Source of the DNA: Crocinitomicaceae bacterium
Lineage (GTDB): Bacteria > Bacteroidota > Bacteroidia > Flavobacteriales_G > Salibacteraceae
Length of the DNA: 64,000 bases
Direction: 5' to 3'
NCBI GenBank assembly: GCA_002713215.1
Contig: PAVO01000019.1
Span: 434,001 to 498,000, forward strand
In this document: piece after piece, positions 3,167 through 16,324 of the stretch
Layout of the letters: the number at the start of each line of letters is the position of its first letter
Position numbering within the stretch: the stretch's first letter is position 1
The notes under the pieces: model-generated
The model's database searches: none
Told to the model about the DNA's origin: nothing
The model's input: the letters and a program-made list of their open reading frames with translations, nothing else
Made by a program: the position numbers and the translations under genes

Positions 3167-4396
3167 TTATTCGAAATCGCTGGTTAATTTGAACCTCAAT
3201 ACACGACCGTTACCGGCATCGGCAACATAAACGATCTTTTTGAAATAGGCGACTCCCATTGGTTTATTGAATTGGTTCAATCCTAATCCATTGCCTCCAA
3301 AAGAAACCTGAATCTGTTTTCTATTGGCCGAAAAAGGAGGGGGGTTAGCGCCCTCATAGCCTTCGTTGGTAAATTGGTACAAAGAATCTTTGGTGGCGTC
3401 AACAACAAAAATGTAATTGGTTCTATCTCCGGCATAAGTTACCCCTTCCGGAGTTGCAAATTTTCCAGGATCGTATAGAAACCCATCTGCTTTTGATGTA
3501 TCGCTACTAGCCATTTCTTTAAGGGAATAGATACCCCCATCCAGTGTTTCTTCGTATTTAATGTACTGAACTTTTAACGCCAGGTCGGGATTAATGGATG
3601 TATAAATAAAATCTTTCGAAGAAGAAACGGCTGGATCTTGAGGAGGCTGAGAAAGCGTTGTGATACTGCTCGGCATAGAAAAATAATCGTTTTCAAAACC
3701 AGCACCCGTTTGTACCGCTATGGGCGATATTCTTTTGTCTTGTACTCCATTTAAATCCGGAATTACTGATAACACCGCATCATCGGGTCCTCCTAACTGA
3801 AGCGGGTTGTTGCTGGGGCCCGTACGGGTCAGGTAGTAAGAATTATCAGAAAGCGTTGCAACACCTGTAAATGAAATAGCTTCGTCTGATTCTGAAGCGG
3901 TTTTAAAACCCAAATAATAAGGATGAATTATTACCGCTTCGGGTGTTCCAAAAGAAAGCGATAGTGCGCTTCCTCTTTTTTGATTGATTCTATAAACACA
4001 GGACAGGGTTAAACTTACAAGCTGACTTGTGTCTTTTGGATCCTGAAATGAGGTGTCATAGGTGCCAATGGCCAAAATGTCAAAGGCTCGATCCTGAGCT
4101 ATGGATTTCAATCCTTTTACACTAACTCTATCCAGTTCTCTACCCGATAAGTCAAAGGAAACGATTTGACCGGTTCCTTCATCAACCACATAAAGAAGTT
4201 CATCGAAGCCTGTAACAACCTGTGTGGGTTTTACAAACCCTGAAAGAACGGGTTGAATGGGAACGTAGGCAACTTCACGCCCCTGGTATTCCGGCTTGTC
4301 TATAAAAGAAAGGTCTGTTTCTTCACCAAAAAAGCCTTCACAACCACTGATTATGGTTAAAAGTAAAAGACCGAAAAGCAATTTAACTATTCTCAT
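3167..4396 (-). CDS. NHL/beta-propeller-like lipoprotein
   Basis: A 409-residue lipoprotein: hydrophobic signal peptide ending in the lipobox ISGC (Cys19). After the Cys come acidic residues (EETD). The body has repeated segments of the type VVDEGTGQIVSFDLSG near residue 70 and YVADAGNGRVLRF near the C-terminus, which look like NHL/beta-propeller blades and suggest a binding or scaffold role rather than an enzyme. It is the last gene of the seven-gene minus-strand cluster, and its ATG overlaps the TGA of the PorV-like gene by four bases (ATGA). I infer it sits at the outer membrane with the TonB receptor; the function is unknown. Confidence 0.75.
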   Translation of the reverse strand: MRIVKLLFGLLLLTIISGCEGFFGEETDLSFIDKPEYQGREVAYVPIQPVLSGFVKPTQVVTGFDELLYVVDEGTGQIVSFDLSGRELDRVSVKGLKSIAQDRAFDILAIGTYDTSFQDPKDTSQLVSLTLSCVYRINQKRGSALSLSFGTPEAVIIHPYYLGFKTASESDEAISFTGVATLSDNSYYLTRTGPSNNPLQLGGPDDAVLSVIPDLNGVQDKRISPIAVQTGAGFENDYFSMPSSITTLSQPPQDPAVSSSKDFIYTSINPDLALKVQYIKYEETLDGGIYSLKEMASSDTSKADGFLYDPGKFATPEGVTYAGDRTNYIFVVDATKDSLYQFTNEGYEGANPPPFSANRKQIQVSFGGNGLGLNQFNKPMGVAYFKKIVYVADAGNGRVLRFKLTSDFE

Positions 4397-5412
4397 TTTC
4401 TCTCTTCTGCTTTATGAAGCGTTAAACTTAATCCCAGACTGTGCTGTAACCCAATTATAGAACTCGGTGCAATTCCATAATCAATACGAAGTGGGTTGTG
4501 TCCAATTCGGGCTTTATATCCCACTCCGAAGGTTGGTATTTTGTAAGTTTTTCTACCTAAAATATATCCGGCACGTATAGAAACTAACTTTCGGTATTCA
4601 TATTCCAATCCTAACCTTAGATTCTCGCTATTGTCATTGGGATGGTACAACTGAACAGCTGCTGTCATTTTGTGGTCGTCTTTGTCAATGGCCAGCATGG
4701 ATATTCCTAATTTAAATGTGGTTGGAAGCGGGTATTTATCAGGGCTTGAATTTGTTCCGGTACTAAAGGTAACTTCCTGGTGATCTCCATTTAACTGTGA
4801 ACTACCACCAAAATTGGAGACCACAACAGCAAAGCTTAAATCTCGGAACCCAACGTTATAGAGAAAGCCTAAATCTGCTGCTACCGAATGGCTTTTGTAT
4901 TGGGCCATACTTTCATAAACATACTTGAATTTTAATCCCAAGGAGAATTGATCCGATAGTTTTTTAGCCATTCCCAACCCAATCGAAGTATTGGTAACAT
5001 AGAAGTATTCGCCCGTACCTTCAGGTTGAAATTCGGTGCGAACCTCTTGCTTGCCTGAAGAAAGGTTGTTTACCGTAAAGAGAATGTTGGTGTTTACTTT
5101 TTGCCAGGGCAATATGGTACTAAAAAAGCTTTGGTTAATTCCACTTCCTACAAATAGGTTAGAGGCACTGATGTTTGCATTTTTAAAAGAGGTTGCTGCT
5201 GCTGGGTTGGTGAAGGTGCAAAAGCCATCTTCTTTTAGGGTGATGTTTGCTCCGGCCATTCCAAAAGACCTGCTGCTGCCATCGTTTTTCAGGAATACCA
5301 GCGTTGCAGAGCCCGTTCGTTGACCTCCTAAATTAGGTAAAACCTGCGCAGAGATTTCGCCAAGGAAAAGCACAAAAATTAAAAGAGCAATATGTTTATG
5401 TACCAATTTCAT
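4393..5412 (-). CDS. PorV/PorQ-family outer-membrane barrel protein
   Basis: A 339-residue outer-membrane beta-barrel protein. After the signal peptide (MKLVHKHIALLIFVLFLGEISA) comes a PorV/PorQ-type N-terminus: LPNLGGQRTGSATLVFLKN, then SRSFGMAGANITL and FTNPAAA. The rest alternates beta strands and ends in a Phe/Leu-rich barrel-like region. PorV-type proteins bind T9SS cargo C-terminal domains and shuttle them to the PorU sortase. The start is set at the ATG at 5412, which shares one base with the TAA of the TonB receptor (TAATG); a longer reading frame from 5460 would bury that coupling. Its position beside T9SS cargo genes suggests a dedicated adaptor, which is inference. Confidence 0.82.
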   Translation of the reverse strand: MKLVHKHIALLIFVLFLGEISAQVLPNLGGQRTGSATLVFLKNDGSSRSFGMAGANITLKEDGFCTFTNPAAATSFKNANISASNLFVGSGINQSFFSTILPWQKVNTNILFTVNNLSSGKQEVRTEFQPEGTGEYFYVTNTSIGLGMAKKLSDQFSLGLKFKYVYESMAQYKSHSVAADLGFLYNVGFRDLSFAVVVSNFGGSSQLNGDHQEVTFSTGTNSSPDKYPLPTTFKLGISMLAIDKDDHKMTAAVQLYHPNDNSENLRLGLEYEYRKLVSIRAGYILGRKTYKIPTFGVGYKARIGHNPLRIDYGIAPSSIIGLQHSLGLSLTLHKAEERK

Positions 5413-8243
5413 TAAAAACGAAATGCTAAACCATATAAAATTTGTGTAGGTGGTCTCCAACGTGCAGGATTATTAGGGGGTGTTCCTGTGGCTTGGGGAT
5501 CATCGTATTTTGGATCTCTCCACGTTTCAGGAACATCATCACCTTCACGGTATCCGTCACCAGTAACCGGATTTACAATTTGAGCATTTTTAGTGTTGAA
5601 GAGGTTTCGCACTTCAAAGCTCAGCGACAATGCGCTCTTCCTTTTTGTACTTAGTTTAAAATCCTTTGTGATTTTTAGATCAGCCCAGAACCAGGCCTTA
5701 GCAACTTTGCTATTTGGTTTATCATTTTCAGATTGATAAAGCACACGTCCGAAGTCATTGGTTCCAGCGGCTTTAACCGGAGTATAACGATATCCCGATT
5801 TATAATTAGCACTTAAGAAAATTCGAAAACGATTGAATACTTTAGGAATGTTCATGCTGGTATCAGTATTGAAAATTATTCCCATTTTTAGGTTCCAGGG
5901 TCGGTCCCAAGCTAAAGGTTGCTCCTTGGTGTTATCTACAAAACCTTGTTCTCTAATCTGTAGCTCACTCTCGCGTGCCGTATTTGATTTTCCACGAGCT
6001 GATTGAAAAGTTCCGTTGAAAAATAATTTATAGTACTTCGCAATTCTTTGAGTTATACCCAATTCCACTCCAATGATTCTTGCATAATCCTGGTTATAGT
6101 AGATTTTACGGCTAACCAACTTGCCTGTTTGATCTTTGATTAAAGCAGTACCAGAAACGATGTAATCGTATTTATCGTTGTTGAATGCTGTTAAGGTAAC
6201 GCCTAAATCTTTTGTAATTTGAGACTTAATTCCAATTTCGTAACTAACGGTTGACTCCGGTTTAATGATTGGATTTCCAATAGTCGCCAGCGGACTTTGA
6301 TCCAAGAATTCAGGGTCAAGACCGGCATAGATGAATCGAGGGTGAGGCATCTGCATGCTGTGTCCATAGTTGAAGTACAGTACGTTGTTTTCAGTAACCG
6401 GAAAACTGACATTGATTTTTGGAAGAAGTCGAAACTGGTACCTTTTATTGAAAATCTTTGTGGTTTCTTCCTCATATGTCTTTTTCGACGATTCCTGCAA
6501 TGGAACTTCAGGGTTTGACACCGCATCTGCCAGTCTTTTTCCATAGGTCCAATAGTTAAATCTCAAACCAAGCGTAGCTATTAACCCCTGGTACGAAAGG
6601 CGGTCTTGAAGCCAAAGTCCCCCTTCATTGGGATTGGCCTTCCAGATTTCAGAAGAAGAACCTACACTAATTGAAGGTGTACTCAGGGTGTCATTAATTT
6701 TGATAGGTGCTCCAACCCAGGGCTGATACACATCCGCCCATTGGTATTCTTTTTCTTTGTGTTCCCAGCCAAAAGTGAATCGGTGGGCTTCATTCTTTGG
6801 GAAATAGCTGGCGCTTATCCTTCCTGTGTACTCCAGTGCATAATGGTCGTGCCAGCGGGTGGCTATTCCATTGTTATTGACAAACCCATCACCGGGTAAC
6901 ACATAAATTATGGAGTCTTCCGGGTTGAAAGTGGAGACCGGATTGGTCACAATTGATTCAGGATCGTAAATTTGATCTACCGTCTCTGAGCGGAACGGTC
7001 GACCATTGGCATCAGCTCTTAGGTTGGTGAACAATCGTCCCAGGTCGAGTTTTACATTCCAGTTATTATTGATAAAATGCTGAAAATTGATCGCCGTTAA
7101 ATTCGATCGGTGGGTGTACGTATTGGCGTTATCCGGGTTTTGCGCAAACTGCCACTGCAGACCTGGAGTTACTACAGCATCGAAGCCTACAATTTGCAAT
7201 GAACGCGTATTTTGGTTGACGGCAATACTATGCTGGTTGGTCAGGGTAAGTTTAGTTCCAGGCTTAAACTCATAAGAAAGTTTCACGGTACTGGCAAATT
7301 TGTTGTTCTGACGAGGTGCCCAGTATGCATCGTCCTCAGGAAAAAGAGAGCTCCTGAGCTGATCGGCACGAATTCGGTAATAATCGTCGCTCATAAACAT
7401 ATTACCACTAACAAAAAACCGAAGTTTCTTTTTAGTCCATGGAACAGAACCTCCAATCGTAATATCAGCAATGTCTGTATTCCAGGCTGTACCCTGATTT
7501 TCATTAAACCCTAAATTATCTCTTTGCCAACTTCCGCTTGCTTCAAATTTTTCGCCGCCCTCCCTGATTTTTGTAGCGATAATGCCGGCAGCACCTCCTC
7601 CATATTCAGCTCCTGCACCTCCGGTAATAACCGATACATCACTTACAGCACTACTTTGTACTCCAACTCCGGTTCCTGTCCCTGATAATGGATCCTGAGC
7701 ACTAATCCCATCAATCATGTACTGGGTTTCATAGGTTCGGCTTCCCCGAATATTTATTCCATCCGAGGTTTTACTTACACCGGCCTGCATGGTAACAATT
7801 TCACCAACATCCCTTACGGCCATTTGTTGGATATCTTCCTGATTAATTTTTACTTCGGAATTGGCTTCTTCAAGGTTAATGAGGTTGGCTTCTCCTACAA
7901 TCACAACTTCATCCATAACGGTGCTTCGGAGGCTTAAAGTTGCATTTAAGGTCTTTGTTTCACCTGCAGTAATGGTAATGCCGTTGAATATTTTATCGGA
8001 GTATCCAATAAAGCTGAATTTTATTGAATAGTCACCAGGTTTGATCCCTTCAATTCGGAACTTACCATTAATATCAGCCGAGGCTCCTTTATAAGTACCC
8101 ACAAGCTGAACACTTGCACCTATAAGGGTTTCTTTGGTGTCAGCATCAAATATTTGCCCCACCAGAACACCGGTTCCTTTGTCTTGACCATAAATGGAAT
8201 GGACCAGTAAGCAGGAAAATATTATGATGATAATTCTTTTCAC
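5412..8243 (-). CDS. TonB-dependent outer-membrane receptor with carboxypeptidase-regulatory-like domain
   Basis: About 943 residues. Order of parts: signal peptide ending near SIYGQ, a CarboxypepD_reg-like domain (~25-105, with GASVQLVGTYKGASADINGK), a plug domain (~125-230, with NIRGSRTYETQYMIDGI) and a large 22-strand-type barrel ending in Phe (GLAFRF). It would import a substrate across the outer membrane using TonB energy. I place the start at the GTG at 8243, which overlaps the TAG of the upstream lipoprotein by one base (TAGTG), instead of the TTG at 8249. No SusD-like partner is next to it; the neighbouring lipoproteins may act as partners (inference). The substrate is unknown. Confidence 0.9.
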   Translation of the reverse strand: MKRIIIIIFSCLLVHSIYGQDKGTGVLVGQIFDADTKETLIGASVQLVGTYKGASADINGKFRIEGIKPGDYSIKFSFIGYSDKIFNGITITAGETKTLNATLSLRSTVMDEVVIVGEANLINLEEANSEVKINQEDIQQMAVRDVGEIVTMQAGVSKTSDGINIRGSRTYETQYMIDGISAQDPLSGTGTGVGVQSSAVSDVSVITGGAGAEYGGGAAGIIATKIREGGEKFEASGSWQRDNLGFNENQGTAWNTDIADITIGGSVPWTKKKLRFFVSGNMFMSDDYYRIRADQLRSSLFPEDDAYWAPRQNNKFASTVKLSYEFKPGTKLTLTNQHSIAVNQNTRSLQIVGFDAVVTPGLQWQFAQNPDNANTYTHRSNLTAINFQHFINNNWNVKLDLGRLFTNLRADANGRPFRSETVDQIYDPESIVTNPVSTFNPEDSIIYVLPGDGFVNNNGIATRWHDHYALEYTGRISASYFPKNEAHRFTFGWEHKEKEYQWADVYQPWVGAPIKINDTLSTPSISVGSSSEIWKANPNEGGLWLQDRLSYQGLIATLGLRFNYWTYGKRLADAVSNPEVPLQESSKKTYEEETTKIFNKRYQFRLLPKINVSFPVTENNVLYFNYGHSMQMPHPRFIYAGLDPEFLDQSPLATIGNPIIKPESTVSYEIGIKSQITKDLGVTLTAFNNDKYDYIVSGTALIKDQTGKLVSRKIYYNQDYARIIGVELGITQRIAKYYKLFFNGTFQSARGKSNTARESELQIREQGFVDNTKEQPLAWDRPWNLKMGIIFNTDTSMNIPKVFNRFRIFLSANYKSGYRYTPVKAAGTNDFGRVLYQSENDKPNSKVAKAWFWADLKITKDFKLSTKRKSALSLSFEVRNLFNTKNAQIVNPVTGDGYREGDDVPETWRDPKYDDPQATGTPPNNPARWRPPTQILYGLAFRF

Positions 8244-9673
8244 TACCAATTAAAATCTTTATTCAAAACCTGGTCAAACAATGAATCAACTCTCTTGTAA
8301 TCATAATCGAATTTGTTGAGGGCTGCACTAATAAAAACCATGTTTGGTTTTATTGCGGGTTTTTTTACTCCAACTGTTTTTGAACCAGTGTAAGATGTAC
8401 CATAGATGTCCCCATTGTACAACACCACAGCATCAGATGACTGATAAAAAGGTGAAAATTCAAGTGGGAAAGAATTTGATCCTAAATCGGGGTAGTCGGT
8501 TTGCTGTGAAATAAGTGAGGTGTCGGATCGTTGCAAGCTTAGTCCTGAAGTATTGGAAGCCATGGAGTCGATCGGATAAACGCCAAGAATAGGAGATGTA
8601 GACTCCAGGGGTTTGCTGTTATCGAAGTAACCGATGGCAAACACTTTTCCTCCATTTAAAGTAAAATCTTGTACAGGTCTTGCACTTGATTCCAATATGA
8701 GGGAAGAAAGTCCGGTGCTAGAATTTACATAGGGGTTTTTATCGGAGAATATGCAGAGTTTTTTATACTCGGAAATCATTAAATAAAAGGTGGTTGCCCA
8801 AAATGCGGGCTGCCACTTTCCATTGTCTATCGTATAGTCTACGTAATCGAACGATGTGGTAACATTTGAAATTCGTTGTGTGTAGAAGGAATTAAAATCC
8901 CGATCTCCACCAATGACGATAAGGTCCGAAGATTTTGGTTTGAAATACAGGTTTGCCAACGTATCAATTTCACTTTGACTACCTGAAATATCAGTAGAAC
9001 GAATGTAAACTGTATTTAATGCACCTAATATGAGCCCATCCATACTTTCTGCCTCAGCACCTTCCGGGCTGAAGTATACCTTAGCATTCATGCCCCCACT
9101 TCCCGCCGGATTATCCGGAACTATACTCAAGTTAGATTTTCGTTTATCAATCTTATACCATGAGCCATTATTTAACCTCAGCTCAACATCTCTTAGGTTG
9201 TCGAAACCATCCTGATCACTTGCATTCCAAAAAAACGAGGCTACAATAAAAGCCGTGTCCTTAGTCGATAGGGCCTCATCAAAAGCTACTTCCGGTGGAG
9301 TGTTTTTGATTGGAATTCTAACGTATGCAGGTGTTGGATCTCTTTCCTGTTTGTTATCAATAGCCCGAACCCAGAAATTAATATCCGCAGTGTCCGATCC
9401 TTCAGAAATGTTAAACGTGAATGTACTATCGGCCTTTCGTGTATGGACCCATTCAATGTTGTCCAAAGAAAATTCAAACCCATCAATGTATCCGTCCTTA
9501 TCAGATCCAAACCAGGCCATGTTTACCGTTGATTTTAACCTTCCTTCACCTGAAAGGTTGATCACGTGCGGAATCACTTTGGTGTCCGGTTTCTCGTTGG
9601 CATTTTTCTCTCCTTTTTTGCAGGAAAAAGCAATGAGAAGTATTGGGATAATATATAGAAAACGGAAGTTCAA
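8243..9673 (-). CDS. Lipoprotein of unknown function with Ig/Fn3-like domains
   Basis: With a TTG start at 9673 the protein is 476 residues and begins with a compact lipoprotein signal, NFRFLYIIPILLIAFSC, the Cys being followed by KKGEKNANE. The longer frame from the TTG at 9733 would translate through an intrinsic terminator hairpin (9691-9724), so the shorter start is preferred. Residues ~40-240 hold two beta-rich, Fn3/Ig-like segments (for example DKDGYIDGFEFSLD, NTPPEVAF and ASDQDGF). The C-terminal half resembles an alpha/beta domain (LIVIGGDRDFNSFY, GKVFAIGYFDNS) but I do not recognise it. It is translationally coupled to the TonB receptor and may be its surface partner. Confidence 0.65.
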   Translation of the reverse strand: MNFRFLYIIPILLIAFSCKKGEKNANEKPDTKVIPHVINLSGEGRLKSTVNMAWFGSDKDGYIDGFEFSLDNIEWVHTRKADSTFTFNISEGSDTADINFWVRAIDNKQERDPTPAYVRIPIKNTPPEVAFDEALSTKDTAFIVASFFWNASDQDGFDNLRDVELRLNNGSWYKIDKRKSNLSIVPDNPAGSGGMNAKVYFSPEGAEAESMDGLILGALNTVYIRSTDISGSQSEIDTLANLYFKPKSSDLIVIGGDRDFNSFYTQRISNVTTSFDYVDYTIDNGKWQPAFWATTFYLMISEYKKLCIFSDKNPYVNSSTGLSSLILESSARPVQDFTLNGGKVFAIGYFDNSKPLESTSPILGVYPIDSMASNTSGLSLQRSDTSLISQQTDYPDLGSNSFPLEFSPFYQSSDAVVLYNGDIYGTSYTGSKTVGVKKPAIKPNMVFISAALNKFDYDYKRVDSLFDQVLNKDFNW

Positions 9674-9682
9674 AAGGCTTCT

Positions 9683-9724
9683 AAAAATAACCACACTCCG
9701 TAAAATTTTTAATGCGGAGTGTGG
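9683..9724 (-). terminator. Intrinsic terminator inside the seven-gene cluster
   Basis: A perfect 10-base inverted repeat (CCACACTCCG at 9691-9700 and CGGAGTGTGG at 9715-9724) with a 14-base AT-rich loop, followed on the minus strand by TTATTTTTAG. It begins 10 bases after the stop of the OB-fold-like T9SS protein and ends just before the TTG start of the lipoprotein, so it can end or attenuate transcription of the first three genes relative to the last four. Confidence 0.8.
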
Positions 9725-9734
9725 GTGTATCAAT

Positions 9735-11900
9735 TTACTGCTTTATAAATTTTATCCTGTCCAGGATTAATCCATTTTCGTTTTCTATTTCAATTAGATA
9801 AACTCCGTTTTGCAGGTCGTACAACGGAATTGGATTTACTTCCAGAACCGTCTCTGTTCTTGCCACTTCCTTACCATTTAAATCCAGGATTTTTATGCTG
9901 ATGAATTTAGAACCAGAGCCATTTACAACGGTAACTTCATTAGAAGCTGGATTAGGATATACTTTAAATGAGGAAACTCCACCAACAAATTTTTCTACCG
10001 AAGTAGTGTCCTTGCTGGTATCCGCAGGCATAGCATTTATCCCTCTGTAATCCATGTTGTTTCTGGGTAGTAACTTAATGTTTCCATACGAATAGGTCAT
10101 AATTCCAAAAAGGGTATCCATGTTCATGGTGTCTCTAACGAATATTTTTTTGACCGGGTAGGCTGCCGAATCTGGAACTATACCACTTTCATTTACATAA
10201 GAAACGAAAGTTGAACTCTCACCAGGTCTTCCGGCAAGAACTCTACAGTCGGTACTAGGATCTAATGGATCGCGACCAACGGTATATTCTGCCCAGTTAT
10301 TACCAGGTGCATCAGGGTTAGTGTCCACAATATGGAGTTTGCCGTTTCCAACTGAAGTACCATTAATCAGACCCATTAATACACTTTCCCATTTTTCGTG
10401 CGAAGCATATGAATAAGCCATGGAAAATGAATCAGGTACAACATAATGTGGTTTAATTGTTCCGGTACCTAAATCTTTTACTTTAGAAATGCTGGCAATA
10501 GCAGTTCTTCCAAAATTTTCCTGAACTACTCCGGTAACTTCAATTTTTTGATCCCGATTAAAAGTTTGCCCGGCATTGGCTAGCATGACTCCGCCCCAGC
10601 CACCTAAGAGGCCTTCTTCCTGAATATGAATCAACGACATATCACCATCTTTACCACTTGAAGTAACAATTCCTTTCACTGTTACTTCTTCACCTGTATA
10701 TATGGACGCACCATCAGTATAAGGTGTAAACTGAACATCAGAAATTTCCAATCCGTTGTTTCTTACCCGATAAGCAAAAGTTTTCACTTTTGGATCTTTG
10801 TTGGGTTGAGCGGAGTAGTTGCTGCTATCGTCTTCAGCAGAAATATAATACCTGACAAATGTTCCGTCAGCTTGTTTCGGAATGGTAGCCATATGAACTT
10901 TACCTGAAGTATTGGTCATGTTTATAGCAGTAAAAGAAGAGGTAACATCAACCCCGGTCGAATAATGCAATTTAGCACTGGTGATCTTTCCATCCAAATC
11001 AAATACATCAGCAGTAATAACTACATCGTCAGAGCTTGTAGGTACTATTTTATCTCGTTTAACCGCTTCTATTCTTGGAGCGCTGGGTCCATAAATATAA
11101 CTGGAAGAATCAATGGGCATTAATTCATATCCACGGCCATTTTCACCTGTACAGTTTCTGGAATGAATAATTACTCCGGTAATTGAAGCAAACTCATCAC
11201 CCACTGAAGGAGGAACATATTTACCTGGCTTTCCGGTTACCGGATGAGTGTATTGTGGTAATTTTTGCGCAGCAAAAAAGTCTCCAATGTTGATCTTGTA
11301 ACCTGCTTTATCAGCCACCACATAACTAACCCTTGAGTTTCCACTGAAGTAGTTGACCGATTGAACCGATATATCTTTTATAGTTACCAAAGAACTTTCC
11401 CACTGCTCTCCGGTAGCCAACTGATTTACCTGATTTTTGTCGTTGATCATGCTAACATCAATTGTTGTGTCCATAACCTTAACACCCCGATTTAGGATAG
11501 TGATTGCACCATTTTGCAGCAATGGATCAAATTGAGTTTCACCCTGATACTGGCTCAATACACCAACTGCAATAATGGAGTCTCCTTTTACAAGGTTTCT
11601 GATACTTACACTATAGATGGCATTTGGATCACCTTTTCGAAAACGAATTCCTCCAAACGGAGAAGGTTTCGCGGATTGAGTGACCATAACATTATGACTT
11701 TGTGAACCATAATCGGTTCCGCTAACTAAACAAATTCCAGTTAACACAACAGTATCACCATCGTACCTGGAAAGATCATTACAGTTACCCAAATTTGTTT
11801 GGCTAACCCATTGAATTGAGTCTATGCGCAGTGTGTCATACTGGGCATATGAACTCGCCATAAAACCTATGGCTAATAAAGAGAGTAGTAGTTTTTTCAT
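9735..11900 (-). CDS. Secreted protein with OB-fold-like domains and T9SS type A sorting domain
   Basis: A 721-residue exported protein. It has a signal peptide (MKKLLLSLLAIGFMASSYA) and an N-terminal segment (~20-150, YDGDTVVLTGICLVSG) and a second one (~385-470, YTGEEVTVKGIVTSSG) that look like the OB-fold domains found beside extracellular nucleases of the YhcR/ExeM type. Between them is an Ig-like region. The C-terminus (~645-721, SSFKVYPNPASNEVTV to RIKFIKQ) is a clear T9SS type A sorting domain, so it should be exported through T9SS and cleaved by PorU. It lies 11 bases after the upstream gene and ends in a strong terminator. OB-fold assignment is by pattern only. Confidence 0.75.
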   Translation of the reverse strand: MKKLLLSLLAIGFMASSYAQYDTLRIDSIQWVSQTNLGNCNDLSRYDGDTVVLTGICLVSGTDYGSQSHNVMVTQSAKPSPFGGIRFRKGDPNAIYSVSIRNLVKGDSIIAVGVLSQYQGETQFDPLLQNGAITILNRGVKVMDTTIDVSMINDKNQVNQLATGEQWESSLVTIKDISVQSVNYFSGNSRVSYVVADKAGYKINIGDFFAAQKLPQYTHPVTGKPGKYVPPSVGDEFASITGVIIHSRNCTGENGRGYELMPIDSSSYIYGPSAPRIEAVKRDKIVPTSSDDVVITADVFDLDGKITSAKLHYSTGVDVTSSFTAINMTNTSGKVHMATIPKQADGTFVRYYISAEDDSSNYSAQPNKDPKVKTFAYRVRNNGLEISDVQFTPYTDGASIYTGEEVTVKGIVTSSGKDGDMSLIHIQEEGLLGGWGGVMLANAGQTFNRDQKIEVTGVVQENFGRTAIASISKVKDLGTGTIKPHYVVPDSFSMAYSYASHEKWESVLMGLINGTSVGNGKLHIVDTNPDAPGNNWAEYTVGRDPLDPSTDCRVLAGRPGESSTFVSYVNESGIVPDSAAYPVKKIFVRDTMNMDTLFGIMTYSYGNIKLLPRNNMDYRGINAMPADTSKDTTSVEKFVGGVSSFKVYPNPASNEVTVVNGSGSKFISIKILDLNGKEVARTETVLEVNPIPLYDLQNGVYLIEIENENGLILDRIKFIKQ

Positions 11901-11911
11901 AGCTTCTGTTT

Positions 11912-14032
11912 TTATTTAATAATCGTAAATTGTCCTTTATATAACTTATTGTTTTTCTTGTCCTTAACAGTAAATAGATACAGTCCTCTTGAAATAATTT
12001 GACCTTCTGATGAAATGAGGTCCCACGAATGCTCACCACCTGAAAAAGTAGTTGTTTCGGTATCTGAAAACTGTTGATACCAGCCAATATCTCCCGAATA
12101 ATTTGAATTGTGATCAAGAGTAGCAATGAGGTCACCAGCTACGTTAAAGATATATATGGTACAGGTTTGTGGAAGATTCGCAAATTGAATTCGTTTGGAA
12201 GTCTGTCTTTGACTAACTCCTTCCCACGCCGCATCCAGGTAATAGGGGTTAGGGTAAGCAAATGGTTTGTTTTCTTTTGGGTCTTCGTTAGCGGGTGTTC
12301 CCATAAATGCCCTCGTGCTGTTGGAATTTCTACTGGATTCCAATGATCCAAGGTTTGCCTCTTCATCTCCCGTGTCGAATGCTGTTAAGGCTGCCACATA
12401 TTGCCATCCGTTTACCAGATTCTTGATGGTGTATTTGTAGGTATACAAGTTGGTGTCACCTTCAAACTGAACAGGCTCTTCTAGTCTTAACGAATCAAGC
12501 CCAGTTTCATAGAAAAAGCCATCGCCCTTTATGTCATAGGTAGCTACATTTTGCCAGGCAGAATCAAGGTTGATTTTCTTATCGGTATCAAAGCCCAAGC
12601 GGCTTATATATAGGCTATAACCGGCAAAATCCTTTTTCTGGGAGATGGGATCCACTGAATTTTCAGAATTGGACGTCCAATAAATGGTGAGTTCATTCTT
12701 TCCCGGAATATATTTTGTAACGGGTATATCAGGAGGAGAAGGAAGTATGTATCGGTCTATAACTCCATTTCCGTTTTTATCTTCTCCAGGATCTAAAACT
12801 CCATTGCAATTTACATCCTCACCACAATAAGCCGTTTGAGCCCAGAGTGCATTATTAATGATATTGGTTTGCTGAAAGGCATTGTTGGCCAAATTTGGAT
12901 TTCCATCTTCCTTCTTTTTACCACAAACAATGGCAAATGCAATCTTTATTTCTTCTCCGGGCTCCAGGCTCACAAATGGACCAACAGAAACTAAATCGGA
13001 TCGGTTTCCTGGCGTATTTAATATTTCAGAATAATACCTACCGGAGTGTACATTATTGGAATCGTAAGCCGCGGTCCAGGCGGGAGACCAATTGAGACCG
13101 GTTGTCATTTTATTGTACTTCTGTTTATCAGTGGTTGGAGAAAATAATATTGGTTCAGAAGTATTATTCCATTGCCAACAGTTGTAATGTGCTTTGAAAG
13201 CAGAGTCCAGGGTAGGCAGGTGGAATCCATTCTTATCTTCAGCACCCAAAAACTTATGGCCGAAATAGCTTTCGGTAAATCCGAGGTCACCATTGGCATC
13301 ATAACAATATCCCATGTATAGAGAATCATTGTACCCATTTCCACCTTTGTCGTAAAACGCAGTTCCACCACTTCCGGCAGGAGTAACATTTACATTCCGA
13401 ATCACTGCATTGGCAAACATTCCAACATAAACATCGGACAAGCTTTCTGATCCGGTGTTTTTAATGGTGTAATCCATAATTACGAAGAAATTGCTAAAGG
13501 AAAAGTTCCAATTATAAGCCTCCAGATGAACTTCAATTCCCAGTGGTTGATCGTGGTCTGTTATTTTAATATTGGTTCCCGGAACAACAACATATTTATC
13601 TGTAAAATCACAGATAAAATCCTGGTGTGAAATAGCCAATGGGTCAAATACTTTGCTGTTGATTAAGCTCGACCTTTCCTTGAAACCTGCACCGACTTCC
13701 GAAGTCATTTCATAACCACCACCCCCAGTGCTGTATCCACGTGCATTGTCATAGGCAGCTGTACTGACTGCTTGTGAACCACGGAGAGTTGCGCCAACCC
13801 ATAATCCACCTTCGAATAAGTGTTCTACGCCCGAATTTCTTGGATATTCGCAGGATGGTTCATTTTCCAATTGAAAGTTTCCCCGGAATGAATTTCCCAA
13901 AAACCCAACATTGCTAAGTGTGAGACCAACATCACCGGCAGTAGTAACTACAGTGGAATTCTGAGAGAAAGAAACTAATCCCAACAAAACAATGAAGCCA
14001 AATGCTACGATATGTTTAATTCTTACTACCAA
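11912..14032 (-). CDS. Large exported protein with calcium-binding loops and FlgD/T9SS-like C-terminus
   Basis: A 706-residue protein with a signal peptide (ending near VSFSQ). The N-terminal block CEYPRNSGVEHLFEGGLWVG (61-80) is a recurring feature of large exported Bacteroidota/Ignavibacteria-type proteins of unknown function. Residues 406-426 hold two DxNxNGxxD-type calcium loops (D406/N408/N410/D414 and D418/N420/N422/D426), as in dockerin or thrombospondin-3 repeats. An Fn3-like segment follows (~435-560), then AYPNPYYLDAAW (~590) and a FlgD-like Ig domain ending in KGQFTIIK, typical of T9SS-linked C-termini. It starts with TTG at 14032, overlapping the upstream stop by seven bases; no in-frame ATG is nearby. 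Confidence 0.7.
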   Translation of the reverse strand: MVVRIKHIVAFGFIVLLGLVSFSQNSTVVTTAGDVGLTLSNVGFLGNSFRGNFQLENEPSCEYPRNSGVEHLFEGGLWVGATLRGSQAVSTAAYDNARGYSTGGGGYEMTSEVGAGFKERSSLINSKVFDPLAISHQDFICDFTDKYVVVPGTNIKITDHDQPLGIEVHLEAYNWNFSFSNFFVIMDYTIKNTGSESLSDVYVGMFANAVIRNVNVTPAGSGGTAFYDKGGNGYNDSLYMGYCYDANGDLGFTESYFGHKFLGAEDKNGFHLPTLDSAFKAHYNCWQWNNTSEPILFSPTTDKQKYNKMTTGLNWSPAWTAAYDSNNVHSGRYYSEILNTPGNRSDLVSVGPFVSLEPGEEIKIAFAIVCGKKKEDGNPNLANNAFQQTNIINNALWAQTAYCGEDVNCNGVLDPGEDKNGNGVIDRYILPSPPDIPVTKYIPGKNELTIYWTSNSENSVDPISQKKDFAGYSLYISRLGFDTDKKINLDSAWQNVATYDIKGDGFFYETGLDSLRLEEPVQFEGDTNLYTYKYTIKNLVNGWQYVAALTAFDTGDEEANLGSLESSRNSNSTRAFMGTPANEDPKENKPFAYPNPYYLDAAWEGVSQRQTSKRIQFANLPQTCTIYIFNVAGDLIATLDHNSNYSGDIGWYQQFSDTETTTFSGGEHSWDLISSEGQIISRGLYLFTVKDKKNNKLYKGQFTIIK

Positions 14033-15327
14033 ACCATCACTTTATGAACACTGCTTTCCTGAGACTCAGCATTGGTAATTTTAAGCAGGAATATTCCCTT
14101 ATCCGATAACTCGATCATGTGCTGTTGAAATCCGGCACGAATATCTGCATTTCCTTCTTTCACCATTCGTCCGTCCAACGAAAAAACCTGGAAATTTATC
14201 TTTTTAGATTCACCCGAATTATTGGTGGTGAATTGTATCCCATTGCTTGAAGGATTGACCATGCTTAGTTGGAAATTATTTCTGACCGAACGGATGTTAG
14301 TAGGTACCTCATAACTTACTTCCAATTTTAAAACTACTGGAAGATGGTCACTCATATTATATAAGTTATTGGCAATGGAACTTGGTACATCAGTGTTTGC
14401 CGGATTAATAACACTTCCATTAAACCGTTTTCCATCCTGGCCTACCGCTCTATAAGAATTCGGAATGTACCGAATCCTTAGTGAATCGTTCAAAACTTCG
14501 TTTGAAGTTAAAATGAAATCAAATCGATCGTCCATTCCGCCACATTGAGTATTGGAACGGGTAGCCTGAGTGTGAACTTTTGCATAGGCACTATTGTTAT
14601 TCCAGCTACCCTCTTGCTTAACCGGGTCGTAGAATCGATAGGGCTGCTTAGAGTATTTAGTAAACTGTTGATATGCTCCCTCAGAGGACCGGTAGACATT
14701 AAAATCACCAGAAAGAATGTAATTGCCTGTAGTCTCATTTTTTTCAAGGTGATACATGACTCCCTCAGCAGCTTTTTCTCGTTCTGCCTCATTGCCACGG
14801 CTTGCTCTAAGATGAGCAACCAATTGATACAAGCGTATAGTATCGGATAATGACAGGTAATCTCCCTTTATGTATAGCTTATGAAAATCGATGGCACGAA
14901 TAATATTGGCTCCGTTTTTTGTTTTTGTTATTGCCGACGAACTTATTAACCCCAGTTTTTCTTTGTTATAAAACAGTGCATTACACAGATTCTGAGTTCC
15001 ACTTACCTGAAGGTCTGTTAGTTCATACTTGGTAGTTCCTTTGTTGAGGCAATTGGCAAGGATTCTTTTCGAGAACAAGTTTCTACAACCCATCTCATTT
15101 ACCGCAAGAATATCCGGATTGATGTATCGAATAATTTTTTCTAATTGCACATCTTTATTAGCAAGTGTAATATCGAAGTTGCTACAGGTGCTCTCGTTGA
15201 CACCGTAATTCAATAAATTGTATTGCATTATGGTTAGGGTGTCCTTCACGGTTTTGGTTTGTGCGTATCCACTTGCTGGAACCCATACCAATAGAATAAG
15301 GCAATAAACTATAGAAAATCTGCTCAT
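14026..15327 (-). CDS. T9SS-secreted endonuclease/exonuclease/phosphatase-family enzyme
   Basis: A 433-residue exported enzyme, first gene of the seven-gene cluster. A signal peptide ends near GYAQ. The EEP (DNase I-like) fold has its metal and catalytic residues: MQYNLLNYG with N37, VNEM with E78, AHLR with H172, SGDFN with D208/N210, GGMDDRFDF with D267/D270 and the terminal SDHLP with D327/H328. Residues ~350-433 (RNNFQLSMVNPSSNGIQF to VHKVMVW) form a T9SS type A sorting domain. It probably hydrolyses extracellular nucleic acid or phosphoesters; substrate is not shown. The ATG at 15327 lies 17 bases below a good TAGATTTG box. Confidence 0.88.
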   Translation of the reverse strand: MSRFSIVYCLILLVWVPASGYAQTKTVKDTLTIMQYNLLNYGVNESTCSNFDITLANKDVQLEKIIRYINPDILAVNEMGCRNLFSKRILANCLNKGTTKYELTDLQVSGTQNLCNALFYNKEKLGLISSSAITKTKNGANIIRAIDFHKLYIKGDYLSLSDTIRLYQLVAHLRASRGNEAEREKAAEGVMYHLEKNETTGNYILSGDFNVYRSSEGAYQQFTKYSKQPYRFYDPVKQEGSWNNNSAYAKVHTQATRSNTQCGGMDDRFDFILTSNEVLNDSLRIRYIPNSYRAVGQDGKRFNGSVINPANTDVPSSIANNLYNMSDHLPVVLKLEVSYEVPTNIRSVRNNFQLSMVNPSSNGIQFTTNNSGESKKINFQVFSLDGRMVKEGNADIRAGFQQHMIELSDKGIFLLKITNAESQESSVHKVMVW

Positions 15328-15607
15328 TTATAAAAAACGGACAACAAATCTACTTGAAACAAAGACATTTCAAGGGTTATAAATTTGTTATGCGTGCATT
15401 ATTTATTCACAAAGTTTGGACAAGTGAAAATTTCTTGAACAAGTACAATACTTGTAGCCGAATGTTCGTTAAGTATTGATTTAATTTAACTAATTGATCA
15501 GGGAATTTTTGGGCCATGTCAAGGAGAATACCTTTAACATATCTTACTGCAATGCATAATTCCATTTTATTGGTTTGGATATATATTCGTGCTCTTATTT
15601 TAAAGTC
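15328..15607. other. Intergenic region between two divergent units, with a small inverted repeat
   Basis: About 280 bases without a gene. It holds the cluster promoter at its left end, a near-consensus TATATTCG box (15582-15589) before the glycosyltransferase at its right end, and an inverted repeat ACAAGTA-CAA-TACTTGT at 15439-15455 that could be an operator or a weak hairpin. No RNA gene was recognised. Confidence 0.4.
15345..15373 (-). promoter_or_regulatory. Promoter of the secreted nuclease/TonB cluster
   Basis: On the minus strand TTG (15373-15371) is followed after 18 bases by TAGATTTG (15352-15345), matching the Bacteroidota primary sigma consensus TTG-N17-20-TAnnTTTG. The ATG of the EEP enzyme is 17 bases further on. 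This is the best promoter seen for the cluster. Confidence 0.55.
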
Positions 15608-16324
15608 GTGTCAGATAGCATTGTAATTATACCTACCTACAACGAGATAGGAAACATCGAAAAGATGCTTCGCACGGTCTTTGGGCTTTCTAAGGATTTT
15701 GACGTCTTGATTGTGGATGATGGATCTCCGGATGGAACTGCTGAAAAAGTAAAAGAACTGCAGGGAGAATTTGATGGTCACCTCTTTATTTCTGAACGTG
15801 AAGGAAAGCAAGGACTAGGGACAGCCTATATCCATGGATTTAAAATATGCCTTGAAAAAGGATACGAGTACATCTTTGAAATGGATTGTGATTTTTCGCA
15901 CAACCCGGAAGATTTAGTAAGACTATACAGTGCATGTGCTGATGATGGGGCGGATATGAGTGTTGGGAGTCGATATACCAACGGCGGCAAAGTTCATAAC
16001 TGGCCAATTGGTAGGATATTAATGTCCTATTTTGCTTCGGTTTATGTAAGATTGGTTCTTTGGCTTAACGTAAAAGATACAACAGCAGGTTTTGTCTGCT
16101 ATAAGCGTAAGGTACTGAAAACGATTGATTTGCATGCGATCCGATTTGTGGGTTATGCCTTTCAGATTGAGATGAAATATACGGTTCACCTGCATGGGTT
16201 TACCATTAAAGAAGTTCCCATCACCTTTACCGACCGGGTAATTGGTGAATCGAAAATGAGCTCTAAGATCTTCAAGGAGGCATTGTTTGGTGTTCTCATA
16301 ATGAAGGGAAAAAGCATTAAATAA
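15608..16324 (+). CDS. Polyprenol-phosphate mannosyltransferase-like GT2
   Basis: A 238-residue family 2 glycosyltransferase of the dolichol-phosphate mannose synthase type, transferring a sugar from a nucleotide donor to a lipid phosphate at the inner membrane. It shows IVIIPTYNEIGNI at the start, VDDGSPDG, the DxD metal motif in FEMDCDFSHNP and the VGSRYTNGG block. I choose the GTG at 15608 (SDSIVIIPTYNE) over the TTG at 15575 because family members start there and a TATATTCG box lies at 15582-15589, downstream of the longer start. pyrC follows after 7 bases; the GT2-pyrC-DUF4296 trio is a common Bacteroidota operon (from memory). Confidence 0.9.
   Translation: MSDSIVIIPTYNEIGNIEKMLRTVFGLSKDFDVLIVDDGSPDGTAEKVKELQGEFDGHLFISEREGKQGLGTAYIHGFKICLEKGYEYIFEMDCDFSHNPEDLVRLYSACADDGADMSVGSRYTNGGKVHNWPIGRILMSYFASVYVRLVLWLNVKDTTAGFVCYKRKVLKTIDLHAIRFVGYAFQIEMKYTVHLHGFTIKEVPITFTDRVIGESKMSSKIFKEALFGVLIMKGKSIK

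Follow-up and report, generated by a model that had tools for sequence, protein, structure and literature searches.

A six-gene outer-membrane locus with exchangeable nuclease neighbors in Bacteroidota, a candidate for the harvest of extracellular nucleic acid

The present study concerns a stretch of 64,000 nucleotides from a Crocinitomicaceae bacterium (positions 434,001 to 498,000 of contig PAVO01000019.1; hereafter the window), in which a cluster of seven genes at 3167-15327 encodes exported-looking proteins. Six of these genes, CaL, OB, LP4, TBDR, PorVL, and NHL, constitute one functional unit, being present or absent together even where they are unlinked. The seventh, EEP, is an accessory enzyme (all seven labels were coined in this analysis). 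We propose, with a probability of about one half (0.52), that the six-gene core is an outer-membrane machine that harvests extracellular nucleic acid, served by the type IX secretion system (T9SS) and energized by TonB. The locus is probably a widespread and undescribed machine for the harvest of extracellular DNA or RNA.

The common fate of the six genes emerged when each of the seven proteins was searched against the same 60 related genomes. LP4, TBDR, and NHL were each present in the same 36 genomes and absent from the same 24. Ortholog-level matches to CaL, OB, and PorVL were confined to those 36 genomes as well, superfamily paralogs occurring elsewhere; contig ends interrupt OB and PorVL in G018, G019, and comparably fragmented genomes. 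The carriers comprise the window's family, minus G024, G026, and G027, plus G042, G050, G056, and G057 from four other families. In these last four genomes, the six genes are scattered yet all retained; for instance, G050 has CaL-OB on contig C14, LP4 on C16, TBDR on C7, and PorVL-NHL on C15.

A preliminary description of this DNA had drawn attention to the cluster. The order is real, and it is not local but spread through the phylum and beyond. In a survey of 395 genomes of the phylum (the window's own genome and 394 others), CaL and NHL were each found in 112; with the own genome excluded, the number is 111 for each, 108 being common to both, and all of these carriers lie outside the window's class. 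Among loci drawn from 80 regions of the survey carriers and 80 named loci, the order CaL-OB-LP4-TBDR-PorVL-NHL was exact in 121 of 126 unique intact ones from many Bacteroidota families; the homologues are thus not always found apart. The core occurs in the cultured Flavobacteriales Thermaurantimonas aggregans (L114) and Acidiluteibacter ferrifornacis (L129). Other named carriers are many Ignavibacteria metagenome-assembled genomes (MAGs), while MAGs labelled Fermentibacteria (L149, L179) and KSB1 (L166) hold the whole operon, and CaL was seen on short contigs of MAGs labelled Neomarinimicrobiota and Eisenbacteria (L174 and L172, respectively). The pairwise distance matrices of the six proteins correlate with r of 0.73-0.92 (118 loci), which fits inheritance as a block, part of this correlation being expected from shared species history alone.

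Two variants of the core were also observed. In locus L055 (genome G014), OB is doubled within the operon, the two copies (404 and 741 aa) lying between CaL and LP4. In L170, L177, L181, L182, L184, and L186, which come from Chitinophagales-labelled or unclassified Bacteroidota MAGs, CaL stands apart from the other core genes within the stretch retrieved. Some of these lone copies may be paralogs in another role, or may belong to scattered cores.

Phosphodiester-cleaving enzymes are enriched beside the core. A neighbor was taken as the first same-strand gene beyond the core end with a gap under 350 bases. By Pfam, 52 of 89 such downstream genes belonged to these classes (PLD-like, 19; Exo_endo_phos, 18; NPP-type phosphodiesterase, 9; endonuclease I, EndoI, 6). 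Local profiles returned the same 52 of 89 downstream, 34 of 94 first-upstream genes (32 of them EEP), and 7 of 398 distant control genes, i.e., 58% of the first-downstream genes versus 1.8% of the controls. Within two positions of the core, a phosphodiester-cleaving gene was present in 68 of 93 intact loci with a known family and in 13 of 25 families. These enzymes are mutually unrelated, occupy either operon end, and depend on the lineage: most members of the window's family have EEP upstream, genus g9 has EndoI downstream, family f43 has NPP, and in families f36 and f54, a group whose named members are Ignavibacteria MAGs, the downstream gene is PLD or EEP. Pfam-confirmed examples include EndoI in L046 (E 3e-33), PLD plus DUF5689 in L089, NPP in L103 (E 3e-94), and EEP in L096. 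In four f43 loci (L223, L228, L234, and L243), a different second TonB receptor (882-917 aa) directly follows NHL, and in three of the four it is followed by an NPP phosphodiesterase.

In the window, the accessory enzyme is EEP (14026..15327, minus strand), a secreted member of the endonuclease/exonuclease/phosphatase family. Its match to PF03372 is marginally above the gathering cut-off (24.6 versus 24.5 bits), and it carries putative catalytic motifs (E77, GDFN at 207, and SDH at 326) and a T9SS tail (TIGR04183, 28.5 bits versus a cut-off of 23). The preliminary description had taken EEP as the basis of the system, which does not hold. EEP is present in 31 of the 36 core carriers and in 7 of the 24 core-less genomes; it is operonic in many genomes of the same family, and G002 and genus g9 have it away from the core. 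Since its distribution differs from that of the six core genes, EEP was ruled out as a core member and is considered accessory. Carriers of the core in genus g9 have EndoI directly downstream of NHL, with EEP 50 kb off or on another contig. Three g9 species (the G024, G026, and G027 mentioned above) are devoid of the core, of EndoI, and of EEP. That an unlinked EEP is lost alongside the core points to a common task and not just to proximity, and these three species offer a natural experiment for comparing lifestyles.

OB (9735..11900, minus strand) is a secreted OB-fold protein of the core. Profile comparison relates it to the OB domains found in secreted EEP nucleases and, probably, to DUF5689. 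With an E-value of 4e-10, its profile finds the N-terminal region of an EEP-domain protein of solved structure (9sf8/9sf9), and it aligns with DUF5689 lipoproteins over 123 columns (hhalign 94%, E 1e-7). Among 26 aligned orthologs, an OB-fold nucleic-acid-binding family was matched in 7 and Pfam DUF5689 in 5, the OB of the window not being one of these five. The T9SS tail of OB scored 48 versus 23 bits with TIGR04183 and recurs in 26 of 26 aligned orthologs; thus, the tails initially ascribed to EEP and OB are both borne out. However, tails of this kind were dropped as evidence of specificity, because the host genome (5.03 Mb in 56 contigs) contains at least 150 of them, and several of these sit in open frames 2,000 to 9,000 codons long. 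The earlier guess of a dedicated degrade-and-import system gains from the interchangeable nucleases beside the core, two of which are lost with it, and from the kinship of OB to nuclease-associated OB domains; EEP, on which the guess was built, lies outside the core. As for the substrate, which had been suggested to be DNA or organophosphate, organophosphate as such is less supported than nucleic acid.

TBDR (5412..8249, minus strand) is a TonB-dependent receptor with CarboxypepD-reg, plug, and beta-barrel domains, and the receptor is kept in every intact locus. It is not SusC, as its score (58.8 bits) falls far below the TIGR04056 cut-off of 368.25 bits. No SusD family was found among the seven cluster proteins in library scans, in agreement with the first description, and the order seen in 121 of 126 intact loci involves the six core genes only. 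LP4 (8243..9733, minus strand) is a lipoprotein that has an alpha/beta domain at its C-terminus besides two FN3-like domains. Searching its profile against PDB gave a short FN3-type match only, and Foldseek returned partial beta-sandwich matches of low TM-score and no full-length relative. NHL (3167..4396, minus strand) is a lipoprotein with one NHL repeat above cut-off and a predicted beta-propeller.

PorVL (4393..5460, minus strand) had been described as a PorV-type adaptor. It does pass the PorV/PorQ subfamily cut-off (NF033709, 144.5 versus 90 bits), and 26 of 26 aligned orthologs match the family, but it fails both the PorV and PorQ equivalogs (44.4 and 79.9 bits versus 250 and 220 bits, respectively). 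It is therefore a beta-barrel of the PorV/PorQ family that is neither PorV nor PorQ. A sequence-only search of PDB with PorVL was empty. The host genome has other PorV-family copies, one of them beside a PorU-type C-terminus. CaL (11912..14032, minus strand) is a 706-aa predicted surface protein that has no sequence match in Pfam, NCBIfam, or PDB. The calcium-loop motif reported previously is present (EDVNCNGVLDPGEDKNGNGVID). The AlphaFold2 model of CaL (mean predicted local distance difference test score 77) exhibits a beta-rich N-terminal domain lacking any known match, FN3-like parts, and a sorting-type C-terminus; Foldseek gave partial beta-sandwich matches of low TM-score only, PorZ among them, and no full-length relative. 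Residues 591-660 of CaL, a C-terminal stretch of about 70 aa, align weakly with the C-terminus of open reading frames of about 1500 aa that directly precede PorV-type genes, a placement resembling that of PorU. The sorting domains of PorU and PorZ are known to stay bound to PorV and PorQ, and cognate PorV-like barrels have been suggested to protect such domains (PMC10202324). By analogy, we infer that CaL is held on PorVL. A C-terminus like that of CaL may be a sign of T9SS proteins whose sorting domain stays attached to a cognate barrel.

Gene content and order, joint inheritance, the coupling to nucleases, and the domain relations of the proteins are observed, and they suggest how the core may work. 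OB, exported by the T9SS, would capture nucleic acid at the cell surface, and an exchangeable secreted nuclease or phosphodiesterase (EEP in the window) would trim DNA or RNA to an importable size. TBDR could then serve as the TonB-energized channel importing the fragments. CaL would be a T9SS-exported scaffold whose uncleaved C-terminal domain docks on PorVL, its dedicated barrel, much like PorU on PorV. LP4 and NHL may be surface lipoproteins that complete the receptor in the place of SusD and, together with CaL, would form the outer part of the surface complex. The locus encodes no periplasmic or inner-membrane steps. The substrate would be nucleic acid, the direction import, and the purpose nutrition rather than transformation.

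Several points weigh against this proposal. No recognized nuclease lies within two genes of the core in 12 of the 25 sampled families. The genomes share ancestry, so that counts of loci overstate the number of independent events. EndoI alone among the accessory enzymes strictly indicates nucleic acid, because the EEP, PLD, and NPP superfamilies include phospholipases and other phosphodiesterases. Furthermore, no catalytic or nucleic-acid-binding domain is recognizable in CaL, and our literature search found no experiment on any core protein. Finally, TBDR resembles the DUF5689-linked receptor of core-less relatives, described below, at the superfamily level only (hhalign 6%). TBDR was accordingly ruled out as an ortholog of that receptor; the two are not close kin, and the relation is one of functional analogy at most.

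Alternatively, the core could chiefly be a natural-transformation machine, passing double-stranded DNA across the outer membrane to ComEC, with the nucleases acting in entry or clearing. In core-less G037, an EEP gene adjoins a homolog of OB and a pair formed by a receptor-like barrel and a lipoprotein with DUF5689 (L080:3971-10707). Orthologs of this barrel were found in G035, G037, G040, G041, G043, and G048, i.e., in 6 of 24 core-less genomes and 0 of 36 core carriers, a distribution that follows phylogeny in part. These genomes are mates of the window's genome at the level of order or class. In most of them, the DUF5689 lipoprotein comes next after the barrel, which faces a second EEP gene; the loci with the pair are L080 and L247-L252. 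In Riemerella, RA0C_RS04915 is an outer-membrane protein with a carboxypeptidase-regulatory domain and RS04920 is DUF5689 plus DUF5017, and natural transformation is lost when either gene is deleted (PMC8459023). Transformation is also weaker in Riemerella tonB mutants, for which iron supply may account in part (PMC8383284). The pair required in Riemerella corresponds in its described domains to the pair seen here in core-less genomes only, which shares EEP and OB partners with the core. However, the two were equated by gene order and described domains, not by sequence, and the Riemerella pair belongs to another receptor subfamily and lacks CaL, LP4, PorVL, and NHL. Moreover, transforming DNA would not survive secreted nucleases with T9SS tails, the targets of NPP phosphodiesterases are nucleotides or short ends, and the exchange of digestive enzymes by lineage is typical of nutrition. 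Therefore, a role chiefly in transformation appears unlikely.

General scavenging of phosphate from phosphodiesters, such as phospholipids, teichoic or sugar phosphodiesters, and nucleotides, would be compatible with the many phosphodiesters that the EEP, PLD, and NPP superfamilies cover. We consider such scavenging in place of nucleic-acid harvest improbable, as the EndoI partners are nucleases and OB is kin to nuclease OB and OB-fold nucleic-acid-binding domains. A similarly low probability attaches to an export-only module, in which PorVL is a T9SS shuttle that places the nucleases and CaL on the surface, TBDR and the lipoproteins form an assembly platform, and nothing is imported. PorVL does belong to the T9SS barrel family, and CaL, OB, and most accessory enzymes bear T9SS-type tails. 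Nevertheless, the tails of the nucleases are of the ordinary type A, for which the general T9SS should suffice; every intact locus has a receptor with plug and beta-barrel; and all six genes are retained in four genomes where they are unlinked. Some other substrate (e.g., a metal, peptide, or vitamin), with nucleases as merely frequent neighbors, would suit the 12 of 25 families that have no nuclease beside the core, but is very improbable in view of four unrelated enzyme superfamilies at two operon ends, their frequency of 58% versus 1.8% in controls, and the loss of unlinked EEP together with the core.

The core, with its proposed harvest of nucleic acid, follows a logic known from polysaccharide utilization loci, while its make-up, with a PorV-family barrel, T9SS-tailed subunits, nucleases, and no SusD, differs from theirs. 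Like SusCD loci, it groups in one operon a TonB-dependent receptor, lipoproteins of the cell surface, and secreted depolymerases that can be exchanged. Unlike them, it has a core without SusD, a receptor under the SusC cut-off, and a PorV-family barrel and T9SS-tailed proteins within the core, and its accessory enzymes are nucleases or phosphodiesterases instead of glycosidases. As in PorU-PorV and PorZ-PorQ, a PorV/PorQ-family barrel is accompanied by a surface protein with a sorting-type C-terminus (CaL, with its weak match to PorU); in contrast to those pairs, PorVL lies under the equivalogs, CaL shows no peptidase domain, and the set includes a TonB receptor. OB and EEP also recall the two halves of ExeM/NucH nucleases and match NF033681 weakly, but their scores of 22.5 bits (OB) and 24.7 bits (EEP) are far from the curated cut-off of 300 bits, each half has a gene of its own, and OB is passed on without EEP. 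The Riemerella pair resembles the core in combining a receptor-like outer-membrane barrel with a DUF5689 protein that is probably OB-related, a similar pair standing beside EEP genes in core-less relatives. The literature search found no description of a TonB/PorV/nuclease locus, though most subscription papers and all preprints were outside that search, so that this absence is not proof. A bolder reading, tentative and in our opinion somewhat short of an even chance, is that the locus represents a class of TonB-dependent outer-membrane machine, spread over Bacteroidota and related phyla, that is the nucleic-acid counterpart of the SusCD loci. Subunits that bind nucleic acid and are exported by the T9SS would be fastened to a TonB receptor by a PorV-family barrel dedicated to them, and in some Flavobacteriales a receptor/DUF5689 transformation system would have replaced the machine.

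To our knowledge, Bacteroidota-type bacteria are without the usual type IV pilus route for nucleic acid over the outer membrane. The core would bear on this passage in such bacteria, for transformation as well as nutrition, and the presence of the six-gene locus in cultured strains makes the question testable. Secreted nucleases are common in Bacteroidota-type genomes (PMC11495043), and the literature search found no import partner for their products. If PorVL indeed holds CaL, the two would constitute a third pair of barrel and partner besides PorU-PorV and PorZ-PorQ, and the T9SS would be shown to build import machines besides secreting enzymes.

As to the gene calls, all seven open reading frames were confirmed on the minus strand of 3167-15327, running from EEP (first) to NHL (last), with plus-strand genes flanking the cluster on either side. 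Library scans with Pfam and NCBIfam back the assignments of EEP, OB, TBDR, PorVL, and NHL, and matched no family in CaL and LP4. The earlier recognition of the TonB receptor and the single NHL repeat is upheld, and the claim that all seven proteins are exported fits their N-termini, which look exported on inspection, with lipobox-like cysteines in LP4 (LIAFSC) and NHL (TIISGC). The operon promoter is expected in the divergent intergenic region (15328..15574, minus strand) between EEP and a divergent open reading frame at 15575-16324. A consensus scan for promoters and terminators, unsuited to this phylum, found sites no commoner than in shuffled sequences. With the longest starts, the junctions between the seven frames measure -7, +11, +1, -7, -49, and -4 bases. 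The overlapping or nearly touching ends reported at first are thus real, but the 61-base gap given as the upper limit arises only from the choice of a later LP4 start, and the longest starts yield an overlap of 49 bases, which shrinks to 1 base if an internal ATG is the start of PorVL.

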